Origin: Fusobacteriaceae bacterium
GTDB lineage: Bacteria; Fusobacteriota; Fusobacteriia; Fusobacteriales; Fusobacteriaceae
DNA: 64,000 nt
Direction: 5' to 3'
Assembly (NCBI GenBank): GCA_031272775.1
Contig: JAISTB010000012.1
Location: 1 to 64,000, forward strand
The notes beneath the pieces are model-generated. The model had not been told where the DNA came from, did not search any database, and saw only the letters and a list, made by a program, of their open reading frames with translations. A program made the position numbers and the translations under genes. Positions 44,264-63,587 of this stretch are shown here, one piece after another (position 1 is the first letter of the stretch; the number at the start of each line of letters is the position of its first letter).

Positions 44264-44313
44264 ATGTTTTTTTGGGGGAAACCTGTCGGGGGAATCTGCC
44301 GGTCCCGACCGGA

Positions 44314-47821: not shown

Positions 47822-47831
47822 AACCTCCACA

Positions 47832-47860
47832 ATTATAGCATAAACACGGCCTTTTGTCAA
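47832..47860 (-). promoter_or_regulatory. Consensus sigma-70 promoter of the XRE-xis-int unit
   Basis: Minus strand: TTGACA (47855-47860), 17 bp, TATAAT (47832-47837). A 10-bp palindrome TGTGGCCACA sits upstream at 47880-47889. Confidence 0.9.
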
Positions 47861-48146
47861 CACTGAAGCTAAATTTTCGTGTGGCCACAATCTAATCCGC
47901 TGTATTTTTGAAATTTCGAAAATTCAAATTTCGTTTTAGCCACTTTACTCAATAAAAGTAAAAAATATTTTTTCCTTAATACCAATATATGTAAAATAAT
48001 ACAATTTCCATCACAACAACAATCTAATATCCTTAAAAAAAGAAACTCGTAATCGAATTTCCTTTTCTTTTTTCATTGTATCACGTATGATACCCTTTCT
48101 TGCCGTCCAACTCCCAAAATTCACAAAAACCGATCCTTTTTATAAA
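47861..48146. other. AT-rich spacer
   Basis: No gene found. Besides TGTGGCCACA (47880-47889) there is an inverted repeat GTATCA-N4-TGATAC at 48078-48093. The rest is AT-rich with poly-T and poly-A tracts. Confidence 0.6.
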
Positions 48147-48632
48147 CCTCCGGCGGGCCGTGAGCCACGACAGGCATGGGTTAGCCGTGAGCCACGGCGG
48201 GCATCGGTTATTGGCTGATCACTGAAGCCAGCTGAACTCTACTATCCGACTTTCACGACCTGCAAATGGAAATAAGTAATTCCCACATCCGACGGTCACG
48301 CAGTGATCCTCGGTCTGGGTACTAGAAACAGAAACAAACTGGTGGACACTTCCACAAAATTATGACTGTCTCCGACAGCGCGGGAGCCCCGTGACGGCGT
48401 CGGTTATTGGCGGGCATTATCCGTCAGCGAAATCTCCTCATGCAAGTTGATCTTAATTCGCGTGCAATTCTGGGGGGCCGCCGCTGCCAAGCCGGCCGGA
48501 GGCCGAAACAACAACCTGACGTCCCCTCCCCCATGCCAGTTGGGGCGCCGGGGTCCTGGCTGGCATGGGTTATGTCCAAGCACATAAACTTCTCACCCAT
48601 TGGGTGAAAACTTTTCACCCGTTGGGCGATAA
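48147..48632. repeat. Mosaic GC-rich repeat locus 1
   Basis: Non-coding. Block order: leading CCTCCGGCGG block with GAGCCACGRCRGGCAT (48147-48220), CTATCC block, 70-bp conserved block ending GGTGGACACTTCCAC (48284-48355), a GGGAGCCCCGTGACGGCGTCGGTTAT block (about 48395), then a long block from GGGGGGCCGCCGCTGCC to TATGTCC (48472-48577) whose arms CCATGCCAG/CTGGCATGG can pair, and two palindromes at 48591-48632. Each block recurs in other spacers of the element. The locus lies downstream of the mipA-like gene. Confidence 0.85.
48591..48632. repeat. Two adjacent copies of the CACCC-N3-GGGTG palindrome
   Basis: First copy CTCACCC-ATT-GGGTGAAAA, second a degenerate TTTTCACCC-GTT-GGGCGATAA. They sit 8 bp beyond the mipA-like stop codon, so they could act as its terminator. 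Confidence 0.8.
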
Positions 48633-48639
48633 CTTTTCC

Positions 48640-49398
48640 TTAAAAAACAAACCTCAATCCAACACCGCCATAAAACTGAACATTCGTTTTGACGATGTCA
48701 GATTTCTGCACTTCTTTTTCAAAAAGCTCCATGCCGCCAAATAGATTTAGCGCCGCATTATCTGTAATTCCCATCTCCAGCGACAGATCAAAACAGCCGC
48801 TAAAAACGGATTTTCCCCTATAAGTCTTCGTAATTCCCAAATTTTCTGCTACTTCCCGAGCATTTATTCCCAAAAAGTGATCGATATAGCTTCTACTATA
48901 ATATCTCGCAGAAAGAGACGGAATAAGTGTGAACCTATCGGGTAGTTCAAATGTTTTCCCAAATAAAGCCGTTGCTTTGATTCCCTTTTCTCCCCAATAC
49001 CCACTGAAATCAGTAAAAAAGTCATCAGAGAACATGGCTTCAATTGATCCTCCGACAGCCGGGAAAGATTTTCTGTCTCTGATCTCATCATACCCACCTT
49101 TGAAATCAGTACTTTTGGCTGACCATCCATCAAAATATCCAATCAAGGGATTGGCCACAAGTGAAAAGCGAAATCCAGATTCTTCATATACGATTACACC
49201 AAATTCAAGCGGGCTTCGTAAGAAGACGCGATCAAATTCAAAATTCACTGCGGGAATTGCGACAATTGCCGCATCAGCGTGATACAGTGTTTTGTTATAG
49301 CTCCCCATAAGTCCTACTGAATTGGCTGGAGTAATCTCATCTCCGGCAAAAGCCAGAGAAGTTGTAAGCAAAGTAAATATCATCAGAATTTTTTTCAT
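48640..49398 (-). CDS. MipA/OmpV-like outer-membrane protein
   Basis: 252 residues. Signal peptide about 1-18 (cleavage near AFAG). The mature part is a series of amphipathic strands with aromatic girdles and ends in VGLRFVF, a C-terminal phenylalanine signature of outer-membrane beta-barrels. FLRSPLEFGVIVYEESGFRFSL and NPLIGYFDGW resemble the MipA/OmpV family. AAAAGGAGCAC precedes the ATG. It is the last gene of the transfer cluster, 23 bp after virB4. MipA-type proteins are not usual parts of Trb systems; a role in envelope adaptation or entry exclusion is only a guess. Confidence 0.7.
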   Translation of the reverse strand: MKKILMIFTLLTTSLAFAGDEITPANSVGLMGSYNKTLYHADAAIVAIPAVNFEFDRVFLRSPLEFGVIVYEESGFRFSLVANPLIGYFDGWSAKSTDFKGGYDEIRDRKSFPAVGGSIEAMFSDDFFTDFSGYWGEKGIKATALFGKTFELPDRFTLIPSLSARYYSRSYIDHFLGINAREVAENLGITKTYRGKSVFSGCFDLSLEMGITDNAALNLFGGMELFEKEVQKSDIVKTNVQFYGGVGLRFVF

Positions 49399-49421
49399 TT
49401 TGTGCTCCTTTTCGATTAGAT

Positions 49422-51965
49422 TTATGCAACCGAGAATACAGAATTACGAGAAATTTTCTTTTCTGTCTCATCTTCGGCAGCCATGAGTTTTTTTGTAAGT
49501 CGCAATATAATTTCCCCATTCAAGCTCTTGTAATCAAGCCACAGAGAATTGAATCGGTCAACATCAAATGTACCGTTTGGCTTTGTACAAGCCACTTTGA
49601 TCTCTATAGCCTTGGCCTGATCCTGTTTGCTGGAAGCCGCCACATAACAAAGCTCCAATTTGGAAAGCGCCAACTCAAAAAGTCGTGATCCTTCCGGATT
49701 CTTAAAATAATACTGTCTTTTGGGAATTGATAACGCAATTCTCGAAATTTCGGTTTCATTCAAGCCAAATCCAACATAGCTTTCCTTCTGGTCAAGTTCT
49801 TTTGCATTCGGATTCGGCAAAAAAATCTTTGTCGGACAATTATCCTTCAACGCAGAAAAAATCTTGGAATTTTTGGCATCACTGATTGACTGCGTGGCAA
49901 ACACAACAAAAGCATTTAATTTCCTGAATGTTTTAAGCCACCTTGATATCCTATGTTCAAACTTCGGATTTGTCAAAAACAGCCACGCTTCATCCAGCAC
50001 AATCATTGTGGGAAACCCTGTAAGAGATGATTCCAATTTGTGAAACAAATAATCCAGAGCCGGTGCAACCGCATTCTTTGATTCAGCCAACTTTTCCATT
50101 TCATAAACAGTAAATTTGGCAGCTCTGAATCTCTCGTTTGCTCCATCAAAATATTTTGCGTAAGTCCCAGAACCGCAATATTGGGCGAGCCCTTCGGCAA
50201 GTTTTGGATCAACACCGGCCAACAAAAACTTAAACGTCTTGATTGTCCTCTTCTCAGGATCATATTTTGCAAGACCAGTCAACGCCTCCCATATTTCTAT
50301 CTTCTTTTGAGGATCCAGAATCATATTTTGATCTTCCAACAGAGTTTCTATCCATTCTTGACACCATTCCCGCTCTTTCTCATCATCAACATTAATAAGC
50401 GGCTGAAAAGCAAGATCGTCATTTTCTCCCAGATCATAAAATTCACCACCGGCCGCATAAGCCAAAACTCTTGAAGATGCCCCCATATCGAATACGTACA
50501 CACGTGCCTCTTTATATCGCAGAAATTGAGCAATCAAAAGCTCCAAAAACACCGACTTACCAGAACCCGTTGGCCCGAACACCAAAGTATGCCCGACATC
50601 CCCAAAATGTAAGTTTAGCCGAAACGGCGTGTTTCCTGTCGTCTGACAATATACAAGAGGCGGTTCATTCAAATGCTTGTTTCTCACATTGCCAGCCCAA
50701 ATGGCCGAAGTTGGCAGCATATGAGCAACAGAAAAAGATGATATTGGCGGCCTTCTGTCATTAGATAAAATATTTCCAGGAATTGTTCCCATAAACGCCT
50801 CGACTGCGTGATAAGTCTCGACAACAGCTGTAAATCCAGCTGTATTGAGGACATTTTTTACAGTTTGCGCTTTCTTTAAAACCACATCCTTATCCCGATC
50901 AAATATCACAGCGGTAAGCGTATAATATCCTATTGAAATTGCGTCATTTTGCACATTCAACATTTCATCTTTGATTTCATGGGCTTTTATGACGGCATCT
51001 CTATCCACATTTGACGGCTGTTTTCCAGTCATTGCCGCAATCATAGAATCTTTGAAACTGTATCTTTTCCCAAACCAACGTTTCCATTGGGTATTGAGCT
51101 CTTTCAATGCAGTCAGTTTATCAAGCGGTATGAACCTTGTTACCAGACGATATTCCATATTGAGTGAATTAAGTGAATCAAGGATTCCCTCATACGAATC
51201 GGAGGGAAAATTCAGAATTGAAACAACCTTGAAATACCTTTCGCCGAGCATAGGCTCTAATCCAGTAACCAAGTCACAATCTGAGAGATAACTATCAAGC
51301 ATTTGAAAAGAGATTTTCGTATCCGGCACTGCAATCGGATGATCTTCATCCGAAACCGTTGAATGATAATATCTGATCTGTTCTTTCGATGTGAGAAGCG
51401 ACAATTTTGGGAAAACCGGGCTCAACATTTGTCTGATATTAGAGACTTCTTGCTTAAACTCCGTGAGATTTTCCATAAAGGTATCTTTGAGCTCATGTTC
51501 AGCGCTTGCTGTAAAGAAAATGTTATTCAGCTTCTTGATATTGTCTATTGGCGGAAAATATGAAATCGTAAGGTAATAATCAGATTCAAAATGAACGCCA
51601 GAAGAAAAGAAACTTTCCCTTTCTTTTTCAACGATAAATACCGGAATTTCTTTGATCCCTTTCGTTACCTGATAGGCATTTGCCTTGGATCGTCTCATTT
51701 CCACATGAAACGCCCAATTTTCATCAAGCCGTTTCAAAGCGTTATTCAGTATCTGGCTCATATTATCAAGCTCCCCTTGGGTTGAGCTTGCCAAATCTGC
51801 GCCTCTATACCTAAAAGTAACCTGAAACCCGCCTGCTTTATTAACCACAATTCCTTCTTCTTCGATGTAAGCCCATGGCAGGGCATGATAAAATCGTGCC
51901 CCCTTGGGTCTAAACTCCCGATAAACCACATCAGTTGTGGATTTTTCGTAATCTCTCCAAAACAT
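49422..51965 (-). CDS. virB4: VirB4/TrbE conjugation ATPase
   Basis: 847 residues. N-terminal region with LPWAYIEEEGIVVNKAGGFQVTF and YRGADL, typical of TrbE; Walker A GPTGSGKS near residue 465, Walker B IVLDEAWLFL and ATQS motif. Powers assembly of the type IV secretion channel and pilus at the inner membrane. AGGAGAAACG precedes the ATG. Downstream of virB3. Confidence 0.95.
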   Translation of the reverse strand: MFWRDYEKSTTDVVYREFRPKGARFYHALPWAYIEEEGIVVNKAGGFQVTFRYRGADLASSTQGELDNMSQILNNALKRLDENWAFHVEMRRSKANAYQVTKGIKEIPVFIVEKERESFFSSGVHFESDYYLTISYFPPIDNIKKLNNIFFTASAEHELKDTFMENLTEFKQEVSNIRQMLSPVFPKLSLLTSKEQIRYYHSTVSDEDHPIAVPDTKISFQMLDSYLSDCDLVTGLEPMLGERYFKVVSILNFPSDSYEGILDSLNSLNMEYRLVTRFIPLDKLTALKELNTQWKRWFGKRYSFKDSMIAAMTGKQPSNVDRDAVIKAHEIKDEMLNVQNDAISIGYYTLTAVIFDRDKDVVLKKAQTVKNVLNTAGFTAVVETYHAVEAFMGTIPGNILSNDRRPPISSFSVAHMLPTSAIWAGNVRNKHLNEPPLVYCQTTGNTPFRLNLHFGDVGHTLVFGPTGSGKSVFLELLIAQFLRYKEARVYVFDMGASSRVLAYAAGGEFYDLGENDDLAFQPLINVDDEKEREWCQEWIETLLEDQNMILDPQKKIEIWEALTGLAKYDPEKRTIKTFKFLLAGVDPKLAEGLAQYCGSGTYAKYFDGANERFRAAKFTVYEMEKLAESKNAVAPALDYLFHKLESSLTGFPTMIVLDEAWLFLTNPKFEHRISRWLKTFRKLNAFVVFATQSISDAKNSKIFSALKDNCPTKIFLPNPNAKELDQKESYVGFGLNETEISRIALSIPKRQYYFKNPEGSRLFELALSKLELCYVAASSKQDQAKAIEIKVACTKPNGTFDVDRFNSLWLDYKSLNGEIILRLTKKLMAAEDETEKKISRNSVFSVA

Positions 51966-51982
51966 TCGTTTCTCCTTTCTCC

Positions 51983-52210
51983 TTACGCTTCATATCGATC
52001 TTCATGCTTCATTGCCGCAAGAAAATGATCAAAAAACTTGGCGTCCTTTTTCGTAAGCCTCACAATCAGAATATGCGTAATGATAAAAATCGGAACAAGC
52101 CATACATTACCATAAAACATGCAAAATCCAATACCGGCATTTAAGATAACGGGAACACGAGCCCCGCCGGCTATAGTAACATCCGTTACAAGAGCTTTGC
52201 AAATTTTCAT
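51983..52210 (-). CDS. virB3: VirB3/TrbD inner-membrane component
   Basis: 75 residues. Short N-terminal part with KALVTDVTIAGGARVP, close to the VirB3/TrbD pattern, then one or two hydrophobic segments (about 20-50). Positioned directly before virB4, as in most systems. I chose ATG 52210; a GTG two codons earlier is possible. Confidence 0.85.
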   Translation of the reverse strand: MKICKALVTDVTIAGGARVPVILNAGIGFCMFYGNVWLVPIFIITHILIVRLTKKDAKFFDHFLAAMKHEDRYEA

Positions 52211-52216
52211 TCTCAC

Positions 52217-53152
52217 TTATACCACCTTCTCGACAATATAATTCTCATCCTTGTATCCAAAAACCGCAACAATCTCTTCGACGATCCTGCTTTTATCTTT
52301 TCGTCTGATAAAAATAACCAAATCTACCACATCGGAAATTGTCCTGCTTTGTGGATTTGCACTTACCTCAGATATATATTGCTCTAATTTCCGCAATCCG
52401 CCAATAACCGAATTTGCGTGAATTGTGCAAATTCCGCCCGGATGACCGGAATTCCAGGCTTTAAGCAAATCCAATGCAGCGCTATCACGAAGCTCTCCTA
52501 CCACAATGCGATCCGGCCGCATCCGCATGGCATGAGCGATCAAATCGCGGATTGATTTTGTTTCACTCGTTTTATAATAGACTCTATTTTCCCCGCAATA
52601 CTGCAATTCTTGCGTGTCTTCGATAATGATGATTCTCTCATGATAAGACGCCATTTCACGTAAAATAGCGTTGCAGAGCGTTGTTTTGCCCGATCCCGTC
52701 CCACCGACCACCAAAATATTCTTATGGTCTTTGACCGCTCTTTCGATTACAGCCTTTTGGCCTTCTGTCATGATTCCGCTTGCGACATAATCCGCAAGAC
52801 AAAACACTTTAATCGCCTTTTTGCGTATTGCGAACGTAGGAATCTTCACAATTGGCGGAATATCTCCATGAAACCGTTCCCCCGACAAAGGTAATTCCGC
52901 ATCAATTACCGGATTTTCCGGATTTACTACCTTATGCACATTGGAAGCAACAAGCCTGATTGCGTTTTGAGCATCATCCGGATCGACCAGCAACCCAGTA
53001 TCTGACATTCCAAAGCCCAGCCTGTCCACCCACAAATGCCCGTCATCATTGAGAAGTATATCAGTAACCTCCTCATCGGCCAGAAAAGTAAGTATCCCTT
53101 CACCCAGCGAATCTCTCAAAATATCCCGCAGATCAGTTCCCTTATCTGTCAT
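52217..53152 (-). CDS. virB11: VirB11/TrbB secretion ATPase
   Basis: 311 residues from ATG 53152 (GGGAGGAA upstream). Walker A VVGGTGSGKTT near residue 150, Asp box IIIEDTQELQ, RMRPDRIVVGELRD and GHPGGICTIHANS, all diagnostic. Hexameric ATPase at the channel base. Overlaps the upstream small gene by 11 bp. Confidence 0.95.
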   Translation of the reverse strand: MTDKGTDLRDILRDSLGEGILTFLADEEVTDILLNDDGHLWVDRLGFGMSDTGLLVDPDDAQNAIRLVASNVHKVVNPENPVIDAELPLSGERFHGDIPPIVKIPTFAIRKKAIKVFCLADYVASGIMTEGQKAVIERAVKDHKNILVVGGTGSGKTTLCNAILREMASYHERIIIIEDTQELQYCGENRVYYKTSETKSIRDLIAHAMRMRPDRIVVGELRDSAALDLLKAWNSGHPGGICTIHANSVIGGLRKLEQYISEVSANPQSRTISDVVDLVIFIRRKDKSRIVEEIVAVFGYKDENYIVEKVV

Positions 53153-53525
53153 TTCCTCCCACTCCCTCAGCACCCAAATCATCTTTTATGTAGCGCCTGA
53201 TCAGTTCTTGCAATTCCTTTTTTCTTGCTGGGCTTGCGATCCTATACCACCTGAAAGCATCACTTGCGTTGCAATCGAAAACGCGCTCCAACTTGGCCTT
53301 GTTTGAAGCTACCGCAAATTCCTTTTCAGCTCTCAGTTTTTTGGCACGTTCAGCGGCCAACTTTGCCCGTTTCCTTTCAGCTTCCAACTTTGCGTCAAAT
53401 AACGCCTCATCTTTGAGATCCAAAATCTCGTCCGTCTCTTCTTTCTCCATTTCCATCACATTCATCACTTCCTTTTCTTCGTCAATTCGTTCATCAAGTT
53501 CTTTTTTCTCTTTCAAAAATCCCAT
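53142..53525 (-). CDS. Small charged coiled-coil protein of the transfer operon
   Basis: 127 residues from ATG 53525 (AAAGGAG 9 bases upstream). The first 85 residues are almost entirely charged helix (ERIDEEKEVMNVMEME, KRAKLAAERAKKLRAEKE). The last 40 contain a compact part FDCNASDAFRWYRIASPARKKELQ. No family recognised. Between virD4 (beyond a repeat locus) and virB11, with which it overlaps, so it is translated with the secretion ATPase genes. Confidence 0.7.
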   Translation of the reverse strand: MGFLKEKKELDERIDEEKEVMNVMEMEKEETDEILDLKDEALFDAKLEAERKRAKLAAERAKKLRAEKEFAVASNKAKLERVFDCNASDAFRWYRIASPARKKELQELIRRYIKDDLGAEGVGGNDR

Positions 53526-53790
53526 TTTCATCAACTCCTTTCAAAACTTTTCACGCTGTTACTAAAACTTAATTTGAGATGCCTCCGGCGGGCCGTGAGC
53601 CACGACAGACATGGGTTAGCCGTGAGCCACGGCGGGCATTGGTTATGGCGGATCACGAAAGCCAGCAAACCCAGCTATCTCGCAATCACAATTATCAGCC
53701 GGATTCCCCGATCAGCTCACATCCGACGGTCACGCAGTGACCTCGGACGGGTACTGGAAACAACAAACTGGTGGACATTTCCACGAAACA

Positions 53791-53809
53791 TTTCACCCAT
53801 TGGGTGAAA
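53791..53809. repeat. CACCC-N3-GGGTG palindrome, copy in locus 2
   Basis: TTTCACCC-ATT-GGGTGAAA, inside the mosaic locus rather than next to a gene. Confidence 0.8.
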
Positions 53810-54143
53810 ACTTTCGAAGTAATTGCCTCCGGCGGCGGGGGCCCCCCCCGACGGCATTGGTTAGCCGGGAGCCCCGGCAGGCATAGATTCTGGCTGATTT
53901 CGAAAGTCAGCAGGAATCTTTTAATGATAGTCCATACCCCAAGAAAAATATCATGAGGGGGCCGCTGCGCTGCTGCTGGCCGAAGGCCAACCAACCTACA
54001 GTTGACCACCCCAAAAAAATCAGGGGAGCCGCCGCCGCTGCCAAGCCGGCCGGAGGCCGAACCAACAAAGTGACGTCCCCTCTCCCATGCCAGTTGGGGC
54101 GCCGGGGTCCTGGCTGGCATGGGTTATGTCCAAACCAAAAAAC

Positions 54144-54164
54144 TTTTCACCCATTGGGTGATAA
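54144..54164. repeat. CACCC-N3-GGGTG palindrome next to virD4 stop
   Basis: TTTTCACCC-ATT-GGGTGATAA, 7 bp after the virD4 stop. On the minus strand the hairpin is followed by AAAAGTTTTTTGG, so it may terminate virD4 transcription. Confidence 0.75.
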
Positions 54165-54170
54165 CTTTTC

Positions 54171-56138
54171 TCATGCTTCAAAATTAGACTCTTCGAAATA
54201 ATTATGTTCAACCCGATCAATTGTATCTTGAAATTTCCCGCCCCACCGGAGGCGTTCCAAATACCTTTCTTCGCGGTAATATCTTATTTTTTCTCCCCGG
54301 ATCGGGTGTTCTCCGGTAACAAAGATCAGTGTTTCATCGTTATCCATAGTCAGGATCTCATCAACCGTCATCAGGGATCTTGAAATATACGATTCGCTGT
54401 AATTGATCTTGGAAAACACAGAGAAAATACCCGAAAAGCTATGCGATTTCTGCATAACCGTCTTTTTCCCCAGCTTCTTTTCAATGAGCCCAGGGGTCTT
54501 ATCGTCATTAGGCGTGTAGAAAATGGAAATCCTGCAATTGGACAGGATGGAATTGTCTTTGGTATAGATGCTCGCCAGTTGATTGATATCCTGATAGATA
54601 ATAAAAGGCTTGATTCCATACCCTGCCACATAGGCCATGGCCTTTTCCAATAGCTCAATTTTACCCAAAGCAGGAAATTCATCTATTAGGAGTAGAAGCC
54701 TGTGTCTGTAGCTTGCACGTCCATCTTCGATTTTCATTTGCCTTGTATGGTGATAAATGATTTGTGTTATGATAAGTCGCATCAAAACTGCCGTATTGGT
54801 AAGCTCAGACGGAGGAATCACAAAATACAAAGAAATAGGCCTTTCATGATTCATCAAGTCATCTATTCTGAAATCAGAATCTTCTGTGTTTCGCATGATT
54901 GTCGGAAACCCAAAAGGCTGTAAATTAAGTATTGCGCTTGATATGATACCCGATCTCTCCGGACCCGGCCGACCCAGCATATCAAAACCAGTTCTTGCCG
55001 CAATAGGGTGTATCCTTGGCTTTTCTTCACCCATGGCATCTTTAACAACAGAACCATAGATCTCGTGAAAGAGATTGATATCAGCAGTGGTATTGTGATA
55101 AGCTTTCGTCATCTCTTTCATAGCAGCCTCTATCAAGGCTTCGCTTTCTTCGTCGTCGAAACCTTTGAAATTCGCGGGTTTTACGAAATTCAAAACATCG
55201 GCCAATGAGGCACATTCTTTATCTTTCACGACATAGAGAACATGGAGAATGACACCGGTCAAGAAATTGACGCCACTTGGGGCAAAGAACCCATCTTTAT
55301 CTTTTCCCGGTGCAATGATGATATTTGCAATCGCCATAGCATCTTGATATTCATAGACTGTCCCCTTTCTGATTTCCTGCAGTGGGTTATAATGACAGCT
55401 CACCAAATCTGTCGGCGCAAATTTCAGACAAAGTTGGCCCATTTTGCGCCTGTAAGCGCTGGTTATTTGCCAATTTTCCCCTTTGATATCGTTCACAATG
55501 ACCGAAGATTTCCATGTGAGCAACGTCGGGATAATTACCGACACCCCTTTTCCTGATCTCGTGGGCGCTCCAAGTGCAATAGGGTGAGGCTCCAAGTCAT
55601 AAAGTTCATGACCATAGAGATCGCGTCCGATTACAATACCATCAAGATCACGTTCAGGACGCCCGGCAAGGGTGACACTATAGACCTTATCTGTCCCAGC
55701 CTTTCGGAAAGAATCCCAAATCTCTTTCTTTGCCGGAAATAAAAGCATATTTCCGATCTCTTTTGTATTCGCAAAGCGGGCAGACCCATGGGTTGTGGGC
55801 TCTTCATTTTTCGAAAGCGAAAAAATCAATATTTCAGGCGTCAAAAATATCAACAGAAACAGACTTAACGATATCCCCACAGCAGCAGGCGCAGCCTTTT
55901 GATACCGGAACACCCAAAAGAATATCTGAAACGGGAAATAAAGATGGATATTCCCAATTTTCAGCCCCCAAAGATGCGGGTTATAATAGACGCACCGGGC
56001 AAAAATCTGTGTTGCGACAAGAGCCCCCACAAAAAAAGACGCCAAGATGATAATTGCCTCAACTTTTCTGTCATTCAGAGCTTCTTTGATTCCAAGCCTT
56101 TTGCACCTGTAAAAAAATCTTTTGACTGACTTAACCAT
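54171..56138 (-). CDS. virD4: VirD4/TraG coupling protein
   Basis: 655 residues. N-terminal membrane segments (about 25-110), then HGSARFA, Walker A GAPTRSGKG near residue 190, Walker B LLLIDEFPALG and a C-terminal region with GYGIKPFIIYQD. Brings the relaxase-DNA complex to the channel. The last 15 residues are acidic. Start taken as ATG 56138; a GTG at 56147 lies against the virB10 stop. Last of the virB8-9-10-D4 module. Confidence 0.94.
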   Translation of the reverse strand: MVKSVKRFFYRCKRLGIKEALNDRKVEAIIILASFFVGALVATQIFARCVYYNPHLWGLKIGNIHLYFPFQIFFWVFRYQKAAPAAVGISLSLFLLIFLTPEILIFSLSKNEEPTTHGSARFANTKEIGNMLLFPAKKEIWDSFRKAGTDKVYSVTLAGRPERDLDGIVIGRDLYGHELYDLEPHPIALGAPTRSGKGVSVIIPTLLTWKSSVIVNDIKGENWQITSAYRRKMGQLCLKFAPTDLVSCHYNPLQEIRKGTVYEYQDAMAIANIIIAPGKDKDGFFAPSGVNFLTGVILHVLYVVKDKECASLADVLNFVKPANFKGFDDEESEALIEAAMKEMTKAYHNTTADINLFHEIYGSVVKDAMGEEKPRIHPIAARTGFDMLGRPGPERSGIISSAILNLQPFGFPTIMRNTEDSDFRIDDLMNHERPISLYFVIPPSELTNTAVLMRLIITQIIYHHTRQMKIEDGRASYRHRLLLLIDEFPALGKIELLEKAMAYVAGYGIKPFIIYQDINQLASIYTKDNSILSNCRISIFYTPNDDKTPGLIEKKLGKKTVMQKSHSFSGIFSVFSKINYSESYISRSLMTVDEILTMDNDETLIFVTGEHPIRGEKIRYYREERYLERLRWGGKFQDTIDRVEHNYFEESNFEA

Positions 56139-56147
56139 AAGAATCAC

Positions 56148-57293
56148 TTACTTGGTGTAAGGTTCCAGGATCATATCCGAATGAACCGAAATATTGATCC
56201 GTGCCCCTTGTGCAATTTCAATCGTGGGTTGTCTACCAAGGGCTTTTTCCGCGAACGAGTTTCCAATCGTTACAATCTCTTCTCCGGCGCCATTTGTAGC
56301 CCTACCTTCCCATGATCTTTCATCGTTATCCATAATGGCCGCTGCCGCTCCCATGGCAGAAGCCAACACAACGCCTTTCAGCAATTGCGCAAAATGATTA
56401 TTCACTTTTCCGGTAAGCCCTGCTTTTCCTGTCAGATCAATGCCCTGCATATTTTCCAAATTGAGCGATGAACCATTCGGAAAAATTAACCGCTGCCAGA
56501 TCACAAGAAGCCTGTTTTGCCCAAAAGTAACGTTCGAATCATAGGTCCCAACTACACGCGTCCCTTGCGGAATCAAAAGAAAATTCCCCGTAACAGAGTC
56601 AAATACATTCTCACGAACCAAAGCCACGATGGTTTTTGCCGGAAGATCTGAATTGATTGCCGTCATCAAGACAGCCGGAATGAATGATCCGGCTTTCAAC
56701 TCATAGGGACTAATTGCAGGAATTGTGGTTGAACCAAGATAAAAATTTTGCGCTCGTTTCGATTCCAAGAATTTTACTTTGCTTCCTTGCCTGTTTTGGT
56801 CATAGTCTTCTGGCGACTGAGCCGCCCCGACATCTACAAGAGGACTGGGGGCGCCGTTACTTCGTCCCACGCTATTGAATGAAGGCGCTGCCTTTCTGGC
56901 CTGTTCAGATTCTTCCATGAACTTTCTCAAAAGTTCCTTCTTATATTCAGCCGTAGGATTCGCGTCAGCCGGGGCCATCCGGTAATCTTCCCGAAATTGA
57001 GACGCCGAAGGCTCCACTTTTCTTGTGAAATCTTTGACCTCAGGTATCGCTTCGTCCTCTCTATTTTCAGAATATGAAGCGAAAAAAGGATTTTCTGCCC
57101 TAATTTGCGTGTCCTCTTCCTTTGCGATACTGACATTGGCCTTTGATTTCCCGCTTGACGCTACAGTCACAATGGTTATTGCCGCAATCACCAGAAGCGG
57201 GACAAGGATAAAAACTTTTTTAACCTTCTTGGCTGAAGTATTTGCGTTTTGTGACCCGCCAACAGGTTGTGTTACGTTATTATTTTCTGCCAT
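56148..57293 (-). CDS. virB10: VirB10/TrbI channel protein
   Basis: 381 residues from ATG 57293. Short cytoplasmic N-terminus, one membrane helix (about 25-46, VFILVPLLVIAAITIVTV), a Pro/Ala-poor linker and the C-terminal TrbI domain: IPQGTRVVGTYDS, GQNRLLVIWQRLIFPNG and ARINISVHSDMIL. Spans both membranes and forms the outer-membrane pore with VirB9. Confidence 0.94.
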   Translation of the reverse strand: MAENNNVTQPVGGSQNANTSAKKVKKVFILVPLLVIAAITIVTVASSGKSKANVSIAKEEDTQIRAENPFFASYSENREDEAIPEVKDFTRKVEPSASQFREDYRMAPADANPTAEYKKELLRKFMEESEQARKAAPSFNSVGRSNGAPSPLVDVGAAQSPEDYDQNRQGSKVKFLESKRAQNFYLGSTTIPAISPYELKAGSFIPAVLMTAINSDLPAKTIVALVRENVFDSVTGNFLLIPQGTRVVGTYDSNVTFGQNRLLVIWQRLIFPNGSSLNLENMQGIDLTGKAGLTGKVNNHFAQLLKGVVLASAMGAAAAIMDNDERSWEGRATNGAGEEIVTIGNSFAEKALGRQPTIEIAQGARINISVHSDMILEPYTK

Positions 57294-57306
57294 TTTCTTC
57301 GCCCCC

Positions 57307-58233
57307 TTACCTTCGTACCCGCGACGCACTGTCAGCCCGTCTTGTATAAGCGCCTTTTCGCTTGATTACAACCTCTTTTTTGCCTAACTTCAATGTCGCA
57401 GCATCAAACAGCCTGTCAATTACGATCGTATTTTCATTCATTCTGGAATTTACGATAGCCAAGTTCCCAGTCTGCTCGTCTTTGATATAGACAACCGGAA
57501 TTTCTCTTGTCTTGACAGCTTCCCGCAAAATAATAAAAGTTTTTTCGCCATCATCAAATACCTGTTTTGGCGCGAAAAAGATTCGCTTGTTATTCCACTT
57601 ATACTCATAATTGAGCTTATCCAACGATACCTTTGTCGTTTGGCCTAAGGTCGTGGCTGCTTTATTCTGAAATTTCATCTTCTCATCTTGCGGATAGAGA
57701 AATCTAACTTCCGGGTTATACCAATCATTGGCCGCATGCAGGAAAAAATTATACGACCTCTTATTTGTGTTGACCACAAGATTCGTTTTGATCCCTGCCA
57801 AAAAAGGCTTCACGGCTACAATCTGCCGTTCACCCTCAGAAGATCCCGTTTTCCCAACATCAATGACCCATCTTGCTGTATCTCCACCCGCTGTATAGAT
57901 AATCTCTTCATCCGGATTCAAGTAAATCGTCGTGATAAACCCCGCCCGACAGTAAATCCGGTACATATCATCTTCGAAATAGACAAATCTCGTCGCAACT
58001 GATCGTTTCGCTTCTTTGATACCGCTTTTGATCTCCGGTTCTTTCATGGAATAATCCTTGTATTCGTTTCGGAGTTCTTCAGCAGCTTGATATTCCGCAT
58101 AAATATTGACCCCATATTTTTCAATTGATTGCTTTACCATTTCATCAGTAATCACAACTTCACTGGCATGACCCGGTATCGATAAGACCAACGCCATCAT
58201 AAAAAGCATGGCTAAATTCTGTAATTTCTTCAC
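57307..58233 (-). CDS. virB9: VirB9/TrbG channel protein
   Basis: 308 residues from GTG 58233, with AAAGGAGAG upstream. Signal peptide about 1-23. CagX-like domains: IYTAGGDTARWVIDVG (N-terminal) and NYEYKWNNKRIFFAPKQVFDDGEKTFI (C-terminal). Outer-membrane core complex. Between virB8 and virB10 in the usual order. Confidence 0.93.
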   Translation of the reverse strand: MKKLQNLAMLFMMALVLSIPGHASEVVITDEMVKQSIEKYGVNIYAEYQAAEELRNEYKDYSMKEPEIKSGIKEAKRSVATRFVYFEDDMYRIYCRAGFITTIYLNPDEEIIYTAGGDTARWVIDVGKTGSSEGERQIVAVKPFLAGIKTNLVVNTNKRSYNFFLHAANDWYNPEVRFLYPQDEKMKFQNKAATTLGQTTKVSLDKLNYEYKWNNKRIFFAPKQVFDDGEKTFIILREAVKTREIPVVYIKDEQTGNLAIVNSRMNENTIVIDRLFDAATLKLGKKEVVIKRKGAYTRRADSASRVRR

Positions 58234-58251
58234 TTCGATTCTCTCCTTTGC

Positions 58252-58941
58252 TTATAGCTCATGGTTATACGAAAAATCTTTGATCATAATTCCCAAGGGA
58301 TTAACCATGAGCGTCTTTTCATCAGTTGATTCTTTGATTTCAAATGTAAAAATTCCCGAAAATTTTTCTTTCTTCTCGACTGTCCCATTTTCGGCATACG
58401 ACACTTCTTCCCATCGGGCTTGATATGAGTTTCCTGACATTTTGAGTATTGTCGATAACTTGACTTCCCGTGACCGCTTGTTTTTGAAATACTCATTCAC
58501 ATTATCTGCCTGCATATAAGCATTCAGTTTCTGCTGGGCTTGCGGTGTCAGGAACAAATACTGTTTCTCAATATTTTGTCCAAACAGAACATAATCCAAT
58601 GGAACCGACCTCGTATCCTTGATATGCTGTCCCAAGACAGAAAAGATCATCTTATCCGAGGGTACATACTTCACGTGCGACAATTCCCCCACGTTTCGGA
58701 TAAGCCCTTCCTTTTCATCTACCAACACGACATACGGCTCAACATATACCCTGTTAGATAGCCTCACATAAGCCGCGAGCATGCCTGCAAGCATCACAAA
58801 CAAAACCAAACAGACCATCTGCCAGTTCCTTCGAGCCCGCGCCTGAATGAAAAGTTTATCGTAAAAGTGATCCTCACGAGGATTAATTTCTTTCCCTTTA
58901 TACAAGGCCCCCGCATGTGGATCATAATTCAAAGTAGACAT
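58252..58941 (-). CDS. virB8: VirB8/TrbF inner-membrane component
   Basis: 229 residues. One membrane helix (about 43-62) and a periplasmic VirB8/TrbF domain with YVEPYVVLVDEKEGL and YQARWEEVSYAENG. TAAGGAGTTGTC precedes the ATG. First gene of the virB8-9-10-D4 module; a repeat locus separates it from virB2. Confidence 0.92.
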   Translation of the reverse strand: MSTLNYDPHAGALYKGKEINPREDHFYDKLFIQARARRNWQMVCLVLFVMLAGMLAAYVRLSNRVYVEPYVVLVDEKEGLIRNVGELSHVKYVPSDKMIFSVLGQHIKDTRSVPLDYVLFGQNIEKQYLFLTPQAQQKLNAYMQADNVNEYFKNKRSREVKLSTILKMSGNSYQARWEEVSYAENGTVEKKEKFSGIFTFEIKESTDEKTLMVNPLGIMIKDFSYNHEL

Positions 58942-59072
58942 GACAACTCCTTAAAAATATAAAAAAATAACAATTATTAATCACAACGACGAAAAAAATT
59001 TCTTTTCAGTTTTTCTTACAACATTGTGGTTTCATTGATCGGTTCAGCAACAAAATCATTTTCACTCGTTGA

Positions 59073-59463
59073 GCCTCTGGCAGGCCGCGAGCCTCGGCAG
59101 GCATTGGTTACGGCTGATCGTAATAGCCAGCAAAACCTACTATCCAGCATTCCCGATCCGCAGACGGAAAAGAAACCAGCCCCAACAAAGGCAGCCGGAC
59201 CATCCGGCCCGTCGGAGACACATAAAACTTTTCACCCATTGGGTGAAAACTTTCATCTGGATTGCCTCTGGCGGCGGGGGCCTCGCGGGCCGCGAGATCG
59301 CAGTAGTTATTGGCCAATCACACAAGCCTGATTATATCAATCATGTCAGATTTTCCCAGACTTCAATATCAAGTTCAGGGAGGATCCCACATCGAAATAA
59401 CGGCCAACATCGAAATCCCGCCCCAACCCAGGCCCCCAGCGGCTCGCTGGCCGCCGGAGGCAA
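59073..59463. repeat. Mosaic GC-rich repeat locus 3
   Basis: Non-coding. Leading block GCCTCTGGCAGGCCGCGAGC (59073), B block with CTATCCAGCATTCCCGATCC, palindrome (59229-59249), a second leading block (59263-59310) and the CCCCCAGCGGCTCGCTGGCC block (59433-59462). The 70-bp conserved block is absent. Together with an AT-rich stretch (58942-59072, nothing clear) it fills the gap between virB8 and virB2. Confidence 0.82.
59229..59249. repeat. CACCC-N3-GGGTG palindrome, copy in locus 3
   Basis: TTTTCACCC-ATT-GGGTGAAAA; perfect 9-bp arms. Confidence 0.82.
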
Positions 59464-59493
59464 CCCAATATATGGAAGAAATCTTTTCTTATG

Positions 59494-59844
59494 TCAGATC
59501 AACATCCCACCTGCATGACCAAAGAAAGAAGGTACCCAAGTTGCAGCGACAAAGCAGACCGCGATAGCAATGCAGATCTGCAAGAGTTTCTGAACGATTC
59601 CGCCCCCATGACCAAACATCAGACCCAGCATCAGCAAAATGACCGAAATGATTGATACCGTTCTTGCAGTAGGTCCTGCCAGATTATCCAATAACTTTTT
59701 AAGCGGCCCATCCCACGGCATCGACTCAGACGCCATAAGTTTTCTGCAAAGCACAACACCTAACCCAACCAAAAATAAAAAAAACATTTTCCAACGGATT
59801 TTACGTTGAGTCTTCCCATCATTCTCAACTTTTTTAATTTTCAT
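59494..59844 (-). CDS. virB2: VirB2/TrbC major pilin
   Basis: 116 residues from ATG 59844 (AAAGGAG upstream). Long positively charged leader, hydrophobic signal helix (about 20-35), cleavage probably near LMASES, then the TrbC pattern PWDGPLKKLLDNLAGPTART, two membrane helices around GLMFGHGGG, ending GGMLI. Sixteen-odd residues of the C-terminus match TrbC pilins well. Repeat locus 3 follows immediately, so this pilin gene is detached from the rest of the operon. Confidence 0.9.
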   Translation of the reverse strand: MKIKKVENDGKTQRKIRWKMFFLFLVGLGVVLCRKLMASESMPWDGPLKKLLDNLAGPTARTVSIISVILLMLGLMFGHGGGIVQKLLQICIAIAVCFVAATWVPSFFGHAGGMLI

Positions 59845-59892
59845 TTCGAAGCAACTCCTTTTAGTAAAATTTTTGCATAGCGCCATTACACG

Positions 59893-59905
59893 CCATTGAC
59901 AATGG
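59893..59905. promoter_or_regulatory. Palindrome in the virB2 leader
   Basis: CCATTG-A-CAATGG, 22 bp downstream of the -10 box, with a nearby direct repeat CGCCATT. Candidate operator for control of the transfer genes. Confidence 0.5.
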
Positions 59906-59926
59906 TTAATAATTGTGATATCATAT

Positions 59927-59955
59927 AATATACCATGGCAGTTAAACTTTGTCAA
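59927..59955 (-). promoter_or_regulatory. Sigma-70 promoter of the transfer operon
   Basis: Minus strand: TTGACA (59950-59955), 17 bp, TATATT (59927-59932). Confidence 0.85.
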
Positions 59956-60041
59956 TGAAAAATAAATTCAAGATTATTGATCGGGTCGTTCAACAAAAGA
60001 AAAATCCTGCATTGAGGTAATCGCAAAAAAATGTTGTCTGA

Positions 60042-60363
60042 CTCCGGCGGCGGGGGAGCCCCCCGACGGCATTGGTTAGCCGGGGGTCCCGGCAGGCATC
60101 GGTTATGGACTGATCGTAATAGCCAGCAGAATTTGACTATCCAGCATTCCCGATCCGCAGACTGATTCCAAACCAACTCACATCCGACGGTCACGCAGTG
60201 ATCTCGGCCGGGTACTGGAAACAACAAACTGGTGGACACTTCCACCCGCGAGCCGCTATTGGTGGGACACCTGATGTAGCCAATCGTAACTATCCCACTT
60301 TCACGATCAGCAAACGGATTCAGCATAACTTTACCCAAAAACTTTTCACCCAACGGGTGAAAA
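60042..60363. repeat. Mosaic GC-rich repeat locus 4
   Basis: Non-coding. Leading block CTCCGGCGGCGGGGGAGCCC (60042), B block CTATCCAGCATTCCCGATCC, conserved 70-bp block (60179-60245, with the GGTGGA-CACT-TCCACC hairpin), a divergent CTATCCCACTTTCACGATC block and a terminal palindrome. It occupies the divergent spacer between virB2 and the relaxase gene. Confidence 0.84.
60343..60363. repeat. CACCC-N3-GGGTG palindrome, copy in locus 4
   Basis: TTTTCACCC-AAC-GGGTGAAAA: arms conserved, loop changed from ATT to AAC, as expected if the pairing matters. Confidence 0.82.
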
Positions 60364-60376
60364 CTAAGATCTCAGT

Positions 60377-60520
60377 CCTTAAAAGAGACTTTTAAGGCAC
60401 GCTTACAAGTTTGCATAAAGCAAACTCTAAAACCTGCGTGAAATCCCGCCGAAATCTTCGGCAGGATTTGGGGTCAAGGCCTGCGGCCTTGAAAAAAGAT
60501 TTACCCCCCTTGGAGGGGGG
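60377..60520. other. Candidate origin of transfer (oriT): four hairpins before the relaxase gene
   Basis: In order: CCTTAAAAG-N3-CTTTTAAGG (60377-60397), AGTTTGC-N5-GCAAACT (60408-60426), AAATCCCGCCGAA-N3-TTCGGCAGGATTT with one mismatch (60441-60469), TCAAGGCC-N3-GGCCTTGA (60474-60492), and a further CCCCCC-N5-GGGGGG (60504-60520). The minus strand reads ATCCTGCC at the third hairpin, like the nick core of IncP-type origins. Position directly upstream of the relaxase gene is typical for oriT. The nick site itself is unproven. Confidence 0.5.
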
Positions 60521-60580
60521 AGCGGAAGGAACAATTCTGTTTGTTTCTCGTACCCATGTATAAAAGAAAGGAGCCGTACC

Positions 60581-62716
60581 GTGGCTGAATATAGACTTAA
60601 ATATAAGAAGGGCAAAGTTGGATCTGCCCGTCCTCACGCAATGTATATTTTGAGACAGGAACGCTACGCAGAACATGATGATCTTGTCCGTTTTGGATTT
60701 GGAAACTTTACTCCAAGCGACCGCATGTCAATTACCGATTTCTGGTTTTTGGCCGATTCTTTTGAGCCCGCAGGTTCAACAATCTACCGAGAATTTGAAG
60801 TCAATATCCCCGAAGAACTTAACCACGAGCAGGGGCATGAGCTGATTGAATCTTTTATCGCAAAAGAGATCCCCAACCAGCCTTATACTTACGCGATCCA
60901 TGAGAAGAACGGCCGACAACATTGTCACCTTATGTTTTCAGAACGATCCTTCGATGGAATCAAACGCGATCCCGCCACTTTTTTCAAAAAATATAATCGG
61001 TACCACCCTGACCAAGGCGGGGCCAAAAAGAATCCCTATTTCCATAGCAAAGAGGCACTTTTGCATTTTCGAAAGTCATGGGAACAAGAGCAAAACAGAA
61101 TCTTGCAAAAATACGGACACACCGCCAGAGTTGATTGCCGATCTTTATACGAAAGACGAAAGGAAGCTGTCGCCCAGGGCGACATGGAAAAAGTTGCCGA
61201 ACTCGACCGGGAAGCCGTCAACGTAGACGGGAACATCTACGCCAAAGTTAAATTCAAAGGAATCGAATCATTGACAACTACTGAACGCGACCAATGGGAC
61301 AGGTACCTCACGGCAAGCGAAGCCAAAAAAAGAAAGGAGAAAGGGCGTAACATAACCCCCAAACAAATCACCCCACAGCTTGACCTGAGCTCTACTCAGA
61401 TCAAAGACCGAATCTCCGAAATCGACGCTAAAGATTACGACAAGATCGCCTTGGGGGTGCTTTCTCATAAGAAATATCAAACGGCAACCGCAAACCTCAA
61501 AAGATTGAAAATCGATTTCGGCCATCTGGACGTCTTCGAAGCCAAACGCCAAGAATATGAATCTCAAATCAAAGAAATTGAAGCCTTTCGGGGAACTGGC
61601 AAGTATAACCAGCTGGTCTTTTTCCTCAAACGAGAAAACGAAACTGAAAAGAAAAGGCTTCAATCAATCCTTCATACCAAGTTTGGGATTGACCCTGCTC
61701 ATTTTTCTGCGACATCAGAAGATGAAGCTGCAACCAAGGCCGCCAGACAAAAGATTTTTGCCAGTTATGACGCCTACACACCTGAAAAGATCCGTATGGA
61801 GTACAGGTCTCTTTTATATAGGAATCCCAAAGAGGAAGCAACATATCGCGTGACCCAGTACCGAAACGAAACCCTCATATCAAACCTCTTGGCTTTGGAA
61901 TCCGATCTGGTAAGCTGTCAGAAATCTATCCTATCCACCAAAGACACGACGCAAAAAGAAAAACTTGCGGCCGATATATCTGCTATCAATTCCAAAATGC
62001 TTTTTATCACTCAGGAAAATATCCGGTTATCAGATACCATCAGCAGTCTCCGGCCTGAAATTGAAAAAGAAACCCAAAACCGCCAAACTGACATCGCTAT
62101 GCGTCTTGCTATAGCCCAAGAGATCTTGACCCAAAAGAACCTTGCACCCGAACCCCGTACCCCCGAAGAGATTATTCAGGATTACATCATGTGCCGATAT
62201 GAGCTTCATACAAAAAACAAGCTCTACAGTTATTTCGCTCAAAAGAACCAAACAGAAGGGTATAGCCGGCCGCTTTACCTGCTGCGTTCTGAAATCCAGT
62301 TCCTACAGGCCGATTACAAAAAAGTCCAGGCGTCGTTCCGAAACCTCAGCCCCGAAACGTCCAACAAGATTATATTTGCCCGTGAACGTACCGTCCATCA
62401 AGAATTGAAATCCATCAGACGCGAAATAAAAGATCTTTCCATTGGTCCCAAATCAGCCAGTACCGAAAAGGATCTTCTTACCTTACAAAAAAAGGCCCGC
62501 GAACTTTCGACCCTCGCAAATATCTACCATGATATCATTGTGCGGAAAGCCGAGCCAAAAATCAATCGACGCCTTGACATGATCCACAAATCTCATGCAG
62601 ACCCTGAAAAGCTCTACTTCAAAATGGCCGGGGCCCTCGATTTTACCGGAGAAAAAAAAGACAAGTCTCTCGAAATCAACTACCACGAATACGACGGCTA
62701 CGACCCCGGAATGTAA
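60581..62716 (+). CDS. MobA/MobL-like relaxase
   Basis: 711 residues, GTG start with AAAGGAGCCG upstream. N-terminal relaxase domain (about 1-200): candidate catalytic tyrosines Tyr22 and Tyr30, YREFEVNIPEELNHEQG, and the metal-binding H107 and H114-C-H116 in YTYAIHEKNGRQHCHLMF. The remaining 500 residues are charged and helical, probably coiled coil; no helicase motifs seen. It nicks oriT and leads the strand into the recipient. Divergent from the virB genes, next to a TraD-like gene. Confidence 0.88.
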   Translation: MAEYRLKYKKGKVGSARPHAMYILRQERYAEHDDLVRFGFGNFTPSDRMSITDFWFLADSFEPAGSTIYREFEVNIPEELNHEQGHELIESFIAKEIPNQPYTYAIHEKNGRQHCHLMFSERSFDGIKRDPATFFKKYNRYHPDQGGAKKNPYFHSKEALLHFRKSWEQEQNRILQKYGHTARVDCRSLYERRKEAVAQGDMEKVAELDREAVNVDGNIYAKVKFKGIESLTTTERDQWDRYLTASEAKKRKEKGRNITPKQITPQLDLSSTQIKDRISEIDAKDYDKIALGVLSHKKYQTATANLKRLKIDFGHLDVFEAKRQEYESQIKEIEAFRGTGKYNQLVFFLKRENETEKKRLQSILHTKFGIDPAHFSATSEDEAATKAARQKIFASYDAYTPEKIRMEYRSLLYRNPKEEATYRVTQYRNETLISNLLALESDLVSCQKSILSTKDTTQKEKLAADISAINSKMLFITQENIRLSDTISSLRPEIEKETQNRQTDIAMRLAIAQEILTQKNLAPEPRTPEEIIQDYIMCRYELHTKNKLYSYFAQKNQTEGYSRPLYLLRSEIQFLQADYKKVQASFRNLSPETSNKIIFARERTVHQELKSIRREIKDLSIGPKSASTEKDLLTLQKKARELSTLANIYHDIIVRKAEPKINRRLDMIHKSHADPEKLYFKMAGALDFTGEKKDKSLEINYHEYDGYDPGM

Positions 62717-62750
62717 ACCTACCTCATTGAATGACGCCATCACTCTACTT

Positions 62751-63419
62751 GCCTCCGGCGGCGGGGGAGCCCCCCGACGGCCCCGGGAGCCCCGGGAGGC
62801 ATTGGTTATTGGGTAGACGCGAAAGTCAGCTGAACCCAACTATCCCGCAATCGCAACCAGCCTCCGGAATCCACAACAAACTCACATCCGACGGTCCGAT
62901 AGGATCCTCGGTCTGGGTACTAGAACCAGAAACAAACTGGTGGACACTTCCACCCGAGAGCCTCGGGAGGCAATGGTTATGGCTGATCTCTATAGCCAGC
63001 TTGACCCTGTATAGTGGCAGTCCCTACTCCCAAAGAAAAATCCCAGGGGGCCGCTGCGCTGCCGCTGGCCGAAGGCCCACAACAAACAGTTGACCAACCC
63101 CTAAAAATATCAAAGGGGGAGCCGCCGCCGCTGCCAAGCCGGCCAACGGCCGAACCAACAAACTGACGTCCCCTCCCCCATGCCAGTTGGGGCGCCGGGG
63201 TCCCGGCAGGCATGGGCCATGACACGTATGTCTCCGGCGGCGCGGGAGCCCCGCGAGGGCGTCGGTTATAGGCATTACTCCAAAGTCAGCAGTAGCTTTA
63301 CACGAAAAATGACCAAAATAGCAGAAATTTCGAGATCCACCCAAATTCGAATAACACGAAAAATTTAAAAATCCAGCCCCAACCAAAGCCCCCAGCGGCT
63401 CGCTGGCCGCCGGAGGCAA
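62751..63419. repeat. Mosaic GC-rich repeat locus 5, the longest
   Basis: Non-coding. Leading block (62751-62812), B block, conserved 70-bp block (62883-62953), second leading/B blocks (62955-63040), GGGGGCCGCTGCGCTGCC block (about 63052-63113), GCCGCCGCCGCTGCC block (63115-63226), the GTCTCCGGCGGCGCGGGAGC block (63230) and the CCCCCAGCGGCTCGC block (63389-63419). No CACCC palindrome here. It separates the relaxase from the TraD-like gene. Confidence 0.85.
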
Positions 63420-63587
63420 GCTCAACAACCATGATCCTCACAACACAGCATTATTCCGCGCACAGATGGCACCAAATGAAACAAATTTTATTATTGATCT
63501 AATCCAGATTGACATGATCTGTCCGTAATTGATTGTGTTTTATCGCGGTATATCAGAACTTACATTACTACATCGAGGTTATTCAGA
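63420..63587. other. AT-rich spacer upstream of the TraD-like gene
   Basis: Contains TTGACA near 63509 but no matching -10 at the usual spacing. GAGGT lies 8 bases before the next start codon. Nothing else seen. Confidence 0.5.

Follow-up and report, generated by a model that had tools for sequence, protein, structure and literature searches.

Mitochondrial GC clusters and double-hairpin elements are pairs of GC-rich hairpins, which spread in the AT-richer spacers of a compact replicon. In yeast mtDNA, a GC-rich mobile family has been described (PMC4478555). In bacterial chromosomes, the imperfect palindromes of REP and BIME sequences are short and GC-rich, share a conserved tag and are organized with other motifs in intergenic mosaics, where pairing is kept by complementary changes (PMC2817692). 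The BOX elements of Streptococcus pneumoniae (boxA-boxB-boxC) are intergenic and likely parasitic: they feature ordered modules of variable presence, form extensive hairpins, and range from tens to several hundred bp (PMC3049150). Conjugative elements also carry structured DNA in the form of Frpo/ssi single-strand promoters, which stand in a defined relation to the strand that is transferred (PMC11541004).

The repeats described here belong to an integrative conjugative element (ICE) whose host genome, of about 54% GC, is from the Fusobacteriaceae, a family placement upheld in our analysis; they look like a new family that is private to the element and parallels the chromosomal REP/BIME and BOX repeats. 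The window, i.e. the whole stretch of 64,000 nucleotides analyzed, contains the left part of the ICE, with a tyrosine integrase (45781..47022, minus strand), VirB2/4/8/9/10/11/D4 and a MobA/MobL-type relaxase (60581..62716, plus strand). Contamination of the genome bin, considered as a source of the GC content of the window, is unsupported: the other bin contigs sampled have 46–57% GC. The type IV secretion genes form a block on the minus strand (49422..58941), including virB4 (49422-51965), virB11 (52217-53182), virD4 (54171-56147), virB10 (56148-57329), virB9 (57307-58233) and virB8 (58252-58941); a mipA-like gene (48640-49398) and the virB2/trbC pilin gene (59494..59955) are also on the minus strand. 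The assembly lacks part of the ICE. The contig stops inside the sixth repeat locus, and VirB6, a marker for the missing part, has no match in the genome bin. Relatives of VirD4 were not found in IMG/VR. An oriT-like site (60376..60440, minus strand) consists of CACGCTTAC at 60398-60406 (GTAAGCGTG on the minus strand) beside an inverted repeat, a layout that nine related loci also show upstream of their relaxase gene; the site predicts the minus strand as the transferred one. Third-position GC skew of the ICE tracks one strand regardless of gene direction, and indicates a constant strand polarity.

The repeats are found in six loci, which match the GC-rich islands of the ICE one to one and are all in one orientation (plus): R1 (48147..48637), R2 (53581..54168), R3 (59073..59463), R4 (60040..60367), R5 (62751..63419) and R6, just beyond the window edge (contig positions 64150-64582). 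A first-pass annotation had described the first five as sharing blocks and surrounded by AT-richer genes. The five loci are present at the coordinates given there, and both observations are borne out: local alignments between loci are far beyond chance (E 1e-50 for R1 versus R2, 1e-103 for R2 versus R6), and GC content is 55–60% in the loci versus 42–47% in the element genes, although the loci, being about equal to the host chromosome (54%), are rich only relative to the element. Each inter-operon gap of the transfer region holds a locus, and five of the six are within 45 bp of a stop codon. The right ends of R1 and R2 adjoin the 3' ends of the mipA-like gene and of virD4, respectively; R3 is 31 bp off the 3' end of virB2; R4 sits between the divergent virB2 and relaxase genes, adjoining the oriT-like site; R5 begins 35 bp past the relaxase stop codon and, like R6, comes after plus strand genes. 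Repeats that are tolerated where genes end would be expected in such positions, next to genes on either strand. A coding role for the loci was rejected, as their ORFs lie on differing strands and are not common to the copies.

Each unit starts with a leader (L), GCCTCCGGCGG, followed by one or two hairpins (H1) with a GNG-AGC-CNC tip and by a tail, GGCATNGGTTA. Hairpin modules H2, D and E-F-G come next in fixed order, and the unit usually ends with P, palindromic and terminator-like, or with T, an inverted copy of leader and hairpin. The scheme L-H1(1-2)-H2-(D)-(E)-(F-G)-(P or T) applies across the six loci. The blocks had been reported to vary in order and copy number: presence and copy number do vary, but order is constant, and the loci differ mainly in the modules they carry, not by free shuffling. 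R1 is composed of unit a (L-H1-H1-H2-D, 48147-48355) and unit b (L'-H1-linker-F-G-P-P, 48367-48637); R2 of unit a (L-H1-H1-H2-D-P, 53581-53814) and unit b (L-H1-H1-H2-E-F-G-P, 53825-54168); R3 of unit a (L-H1-H2-X-P, 59073-59253) and unit b (L-variant hairpins-T, 59263-59463). R4 reads L-H1-H1-H2-D, degenerate H1/H2, P, while R5 features unit a (L-H1-H1-H2-D-H1-H2-E-F-G) and, from 63229, unit b (L'-H1-variable-T).

Module D, two hairpins on the plus strand (48283..48355, 53716-53784, 60177-60245, 62881-62953), has 93–96% identity between loci; among the same loci, the H2 linker in front of it shows 66–78%. F-G, with hairpin CATGCCAG/CTGGCATG (54027..54124, 48473-48570, 63120-63217, plus strand), is 89–93% identical between loci. 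P is found, on the plus strand, at 54144..54168, 48590-48614, 48612-48636, 53790-53814, 59229-59253 and 60343-60367. The T modules, both on the minus strand, close R3 (59413..59463; covariance model 59395-59462, E 5.4e-6) and R5 (63369..63419; covariance model 63381-63417, E 1.0e-5). They correspond to the CCCCCAGCGGCTCGC block already noticed in these two loci, which is the inverted copy of leader and hairpin. An element of about 70 bp with a GGTGGA/TCCACC hairpin is present, as annotated, in four loci, its outermost pair being lost in R1 and R2; the block with CCATGCCAG/CTGGCATGG arms, previously assigned to R1, R2 and R5 (with an A.A mismatch), is also in R6 (with a T.T mismatch). Inverted termini of 14 bp (TTGCCTCCGGCGGC/GCCGCCGGAGGCAA in R5) are confined to R3 unit b and R5; no direct repeats flanking either were seen on inspection, and no other site with these ends, which the parent transposon of a MITE would share, was found in the bin, where the ICE is incomplete.

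Searched with a covariance model of the leader/hairpin module, the host genome yields 14 units, a count from the assembled part of the ICE; all are in the ICE, which contains about 19 hairpins. Twelve of the 14 point one way, and the two inverted ones are the T modules. DNA and leader pattern searches of the host genome likewise place units in the ICE only, and the module is absent from positions 1-44000, in agreement with the first-pass annotation, which had linked the blocks to the element. The model has no match in 96 other genomes of the class, nor did a distant blastn search of plasmids and phages detect the family; four block patterns gave nothing in IMG/VR, and the exact D pattern gave three matches in 84,980 GTDB species, about the chance number and otherwise unlike the loci. 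The leader plus hairpin pattern retrieves seven IMG/VR contigs, mostly GC-rich, with motif TGCCTCCGGCGGC and a GC hairpin: they score about 14–16 bits in the model, suggesting at most a motif-level resemblance. This is also what is left of a suggested Desulfovibrio-like style, the host being a Fusobacteriaceae. A literature search on the leader sequence returned nothing relevant. Related conjugative loci of the host family have neither 55–60% GC islands nor a comparable dispersed repeat set, which indicates that the repeats are an acquisition of this ICE lineage.

Compensatory change, proposed earlier as a check on structure, is clear in H1, the commonest hairpin: 93% paired, versus 68% when shuffled (0 of 500), and the GNG-AGC-CNC tip is conserved while the stem covaries. 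A structural role thus passes that check, although quasi-palindrome correction could also generate such a signal. Blocks within one locus have differing closest relatives among the others: R1 and R2a are 94% identical over L-H1-H1 and 78% over H2, R3a and R4 84% over H2, R3 and R5 94% over T. This discordance between neighbouring blocks suggests that copies probably recombined, and fits the earlier proposal of recombination substrates.

We estimate at about one half the probability that the six loci are an element-private, modular family of GC-rich hairpin repeats, BIME- or BOX-like, which was amplified in a single lineage of the ICE and is tolerated where operons end, with P probably terminating some adjoining operons. 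Restriction of the units to the ICE, gap positions, H1 covariation, mosaic similarity, the single orientation along with constant strand polarity, and the lack of such islands in related conjugative loci are its supports. The repeats, presumably non-autonomous, would have multiplied by copying and by recombination at hairpins, perhaps during a single-stranded phase (transfer or rolling-circle replication); they may persist between operons since copies placed there would cause little damage. The nested palindromic mobile element envisaged earlier holds in this weak sense, but neither a transposase or RAYT with matching hairpins, nor a target duplication, nor an empty site was found. The sole Y1 transposase of the bin, in which the ICE is incomplete, is chromosomal and RAYT-like, below the curated cut-off; it was rejected as mobilizer, its flanking REPs being of an unrelated GTAG type.

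The unequal conservation of modules (D versus linker) and the conserved tip resemble function more than drift. It is conceivable, if unlikely, that the hairpins are a working part of the ICE, as recognition modules of single-stranded DNA (or RNA), ordered and in one orientation along the ICE, which a protein encoded by the element would read in transfer, priming or establishment. Single-strand promoters aside, we know of no repeat family with such a recognition role in conjugative elements.

Arrays of intrinsic terminators or insulators, selected to separate operons and to stop read-through in a compact transfer region, would explain why five operons have a locus at their 3' end and why P at 54144..54168 starts 2 bp past the virD4 stop codon. 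Terminator-like sites in 47830-64000 are 39, versus 17.9 (sd 3.9) in shuffles, many inside the loci; these, however, are mostly on the minus strand (about 14 to 2), yet plus strand genes precede R5 and R6. Moreover, 300–670 bp of ordered modules exceed the needs of a simple terminator, and some hairpins do not end in U tracts. This reading appears doubtful for the loci as a whole.

The orientation common to all six loci might be kept because the hairpins form on the transferred single strand and act there, in conjugation or replication, as sites for primase, for partition or as relaxosome accessories. The adjacency of R4 to the conserved oriT-like site, the strand polarity and the conserved tip on a covarying stem point this way, and structured repeats have a precedent in conjugative elements, namely the Frpo/ssi promoters (PMC11541004). 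One orientation in six loci is weak statistically, however (chance 2 x 0.5^6 = 0.03), and weaker still if loci were duplicated from each other. Relatives among the conjugative loci have the same oriT-like site and manage without repeats, and an Frpo-type role does not fit the tra genes, which, lying on the minus strand, would not have the predicted transferred strand as template. We regard such sites as rather unlikely.

Structured RNAs were also suggested earlier; here they would be a non-coding family with one plus strand RNA per unit and its 3' end at P, which is improbable. Hairpin covariation, the conserved order of modules, the plausibility of P as a 3' terminator, folds stabler than shuffles in most cases and an excess of G-T over A-C oppositions on the plus strand (18 to 4) are in its favour. 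Against it, the Rfam search has only tRNAs above threshold and no family for the loci, no consistent promoter precedes the units, the loci keep no constant strand relative to the genes, the two strands fold about equally well whether RNA or DNA parameters are used, and the G-T excess comes mostly from copies of one module, being about 8 to 4, not significant, by independent position.

Compared with REP/BIME sequences, the ICE family shares GC-rich palindromes, mosaic clustering between genes and compensatory changes. It lacks, however, a GTAG/GGAG-type tag, featuring instead GGCATNGGTTA, a GGTTA tail 3' of the hairpin; it counts about 19 hairpins in one ICE versus more than 100 copies across a chromosome, its units mostly point one way, whereas palindromes alternate in BIMEs, and the only RAYT-like gene of the host genome has unrelated REPs. 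The likeness to BOX is one of architecture: both are intergenic and rich in hairpins, and modules are ordered, with variable presence or copy number, but the ICE family is private to a mobile element, GC-rich and limited to six loci, no target duplication was seen, and terminal inverted repeats are found only in R3 unit b and R5. Frpo/ssi promoters differ in that no strong -35/-10-like pair was listed in the ICE loci by a linear scan, and most genes beside the loci are on the wrong strand for reading from the predicted transferred strand. Mitochondrial GC clusters, which are organellar, shorter and devoid of multi-module order, offer a functional analogy only, as GC-rich hairpins in AT-richer spacers. 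Mosaic hairpin repeats are already known from chromosomes and organelles; a family confined to one ICE of constant strand polarity, with covarying hairpins, fixed module order and one orientation, offers a small natural test system for two questions: do such repeats spread via single-stranded intermediates, and does the ICE carry them as parasites or as parts of itself?

Self-comparison of the sequence recovers the five non-coding loci of the first-pass annotation (R1 to R5, within 48147-63419). It also reveals one more, R6 (64150-64582 of the contig), which lies just outside the window and is cut short by the contig end. The six loci are the six GC-rich islands of the integrative conjugative element (ICE) occupying this region and, as had been remarked, the leader/hairpin module does not occur in the first 44 kb. 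Each locus contains one or two units, each starting with a leader, L (GCCTCCGGCGG). After L come one or two H1 hairpins carrying the tail GGCATNGGTTA, a second hairpin, H2 (TGGCT...AGCCA), and then modules D and/or E-F-G; most units end with the palindromic, terminator-like module P (TTTTCACCCATTGGGTGAAAACTTT) or with the terminal module T. T is an inverted L-H1, and R5 therefore has 14-bp inverted termini (TTGCCTCCGGCGGC/GCCGCCGGAGGCAA); both T copies are matched on the - strand by a covariance model trained on + strand units, T copies not being in the training set. The loci had been described as the same blocks in different orders: presence and copy number do differ, the order is single, and the arrangement is therefore better called a single order modified by loss, repetition and fusion of modules. 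In R5 unit a, for instance, a D-type head is fused to an H1-H2-E-F-G tail; in R2 head and tail are kept apart by P, L and a first H1, all of them missing here. One exception to the order was seen: in R1 a variant leader head (L'), like that of R5 unit b, precedes F-G rather than following it.

The host genome comprises 2.09 Mb in 41 contigs, the present one being 64,582 bp long. From about 45 kb onwards it is ICE, with a tyrosine integrase, VirB2, B4, B8, B9, B10, B11, D4, a MobA/MobL relaxase and a TraD-like protein; the host falls in Fusobacteriaceae by its nearest genomes, and it is there that relaxase and VirD4 have their best plasmid matches (Fusobacterium varium AP017969/AP017970, Ilyobacter polytropus NC_014634). 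The left boundary adjoins a secretin gene whose frame stays open only to about 45051, and the right side extends past the contig end. Since the covariance model found repeats on no other contig of the bin, where VirB6/TrbL was not found either, the remainder of the ICE is probably missing from the bin. The secretin gene (44272-45059), open only up to the ICE start, is the sole secretin-domain match in the bin: probably the ICE inserted into it, or its second part is unassembled. Three imperfect tandem repeats of about 246 bp, 68-79% alike, lie between host gene and integrase gene (45035-45614), possibly integrase arm sites or remnants of earlier insertions. Sampled GC content is about 54% for the host, 51% for one genome of its genus, 26-30% for another and 24-32% for other family members, a large within-genus shift if binning and taxonomy are correct.

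The suggested tie between repeats and element holds against the host chromosome: the R5 locus, used as DNA query, matched only this contig in its own genome, and all 14 units found there by the covariance model are inside the ICE. The DNA query had no match in 99 relatives, plasmids or phages; the model found no units in 96 other genomes, a search of that size being subject to stricter filters; an exact D-module pattern gave only three chance hits in 84,980 GTDB species. The family is private to this ICE within the reach of these searches of genomes, plasmids and phages, which diverged relatives could escape. A motif resembling L, TGCCTCCGGCGGC followed by a GC-rich hairpin, occurs in unrelated, mostly high-GC IMG/VR viral contigs (L055, L056, L057, L058, L059), several times within one contig.

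The closest locus differs from block to neighbouring block. Between R1 and R2a identity is 94% in L-H1-H1 but 78% in H2, where R4 is closest to R3a (84%); the D copies all agree with one another at 93-96%, the F-G copies at 89-93%. Because neighbouring blocks disagree in this way, the alignments suggest that copies swapped blocks or experience very unequal constraint. We give a probability of about one half to a non-autonomous mosaic repeat, whose hairpin-bearing copies would have multiplied inside a single ICE lineage. P is probably used as a terminator for adjoining operons; that terminator arrays are the main role of the family is unlikely.

Among 12 distinct H1 hairpins, 93.1% of cells are paired, against 68.1% after shuffling (0/500). 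The rows were hand-cut around the loop, a procedure that favours pairing; they omit the first hairpin of R2 unit b, a G/C-run copy not alignable without gaps. Pairing falls to 35-53% when partners are slid. Four of the six pairs vary on both sides, one passing through all four Watson-Crick types; the tip, GNG-AGC-CNC, is almost constant, with G5, G7, G9, C11 and C13 invariant. The first hairpin of D is preserved in R5, where its stem is one base pair shorter and its loop is new (GGTCAC-GCA-GTGATC against GGTCC-GATA-GGATC). In the four copies of E-F-G both sides of a pair are never altered, and single copies have lost pairing at two outer positions. The compensatory changes to which a structural role had been linked are thus established only in H1 and hinted at in D. 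Those in H1 may reflect either selection on the hairpin or template switching that corrects quasi-palindromes, which leaves the same signature. Most whole loci form folds of greater stability than their shuffles do, whether RNA or DNA parameters are used, and neither strand is clearly preferred. That the units are RNAs is very improbable. As to the strand on which the hairpins might act, G-T exceed A-C oppositions on the + strand by 18 to 4, but most come from one module.

That the hairpins are DNA sites for transfer or replication appears quite unlikely; strand polarity bears on it. On the upstream side of the relaxase, CACG(C/T)(T/A)TA(A)C lies beside an inverted repeat, an arrangement present in all nine related loci examined. 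Here the oriT-like motif reads GTAAGCGTG on the - strand, which we take to resemble MobQ nick regions; if so, the - strand would be the one transferred, departing in the direction of R4. Within the ICE, third-position GC skew is G-rich on the - strand regardless of gene direction, and all six repeat loci share one orientation. Such a pattern fits repeats deposited along a single strand of a constant-polarity replicon, but six is a small number of loci, and duplication of one locus would equally produce it. Two strong sigma-70-like promoters (11/12 each) overlap on opposite strands at 59896-59955; the + strand one, as predicted, would give the relaxase mRNA a long leader containing R4 and the oriT-like site.

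The host genome also holds a gene for a RAYT-like transposase, accompanied by GTAG-type REPs of its own (L042:1462-2028, - strand, on another host contig, C5; upstream side 2070-2170). A REP pair, gtaggggcaggcccccgtgcctgcc...ggggttgcccctac, precedes the gene, and nearly the same pair is found in frame inside it: apparently a REP landed within the gene for its own transposase and left the frame unbroken. Definitions were taken from PMC2817692 for REP, BIME and RAYT, from PMC3049150 for BOX and from PMC11541004 for Frpo. The ICE family was examined for the BIME traits of REP tag, copy number and alternating orientation, and none was found. Target duplications, as in BOX, were not seen at the repeat loci, whereas ordered modules are present, a likeness drawn from the BOX description. 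The family works like either BIME or BOX, while being assigned to neither.
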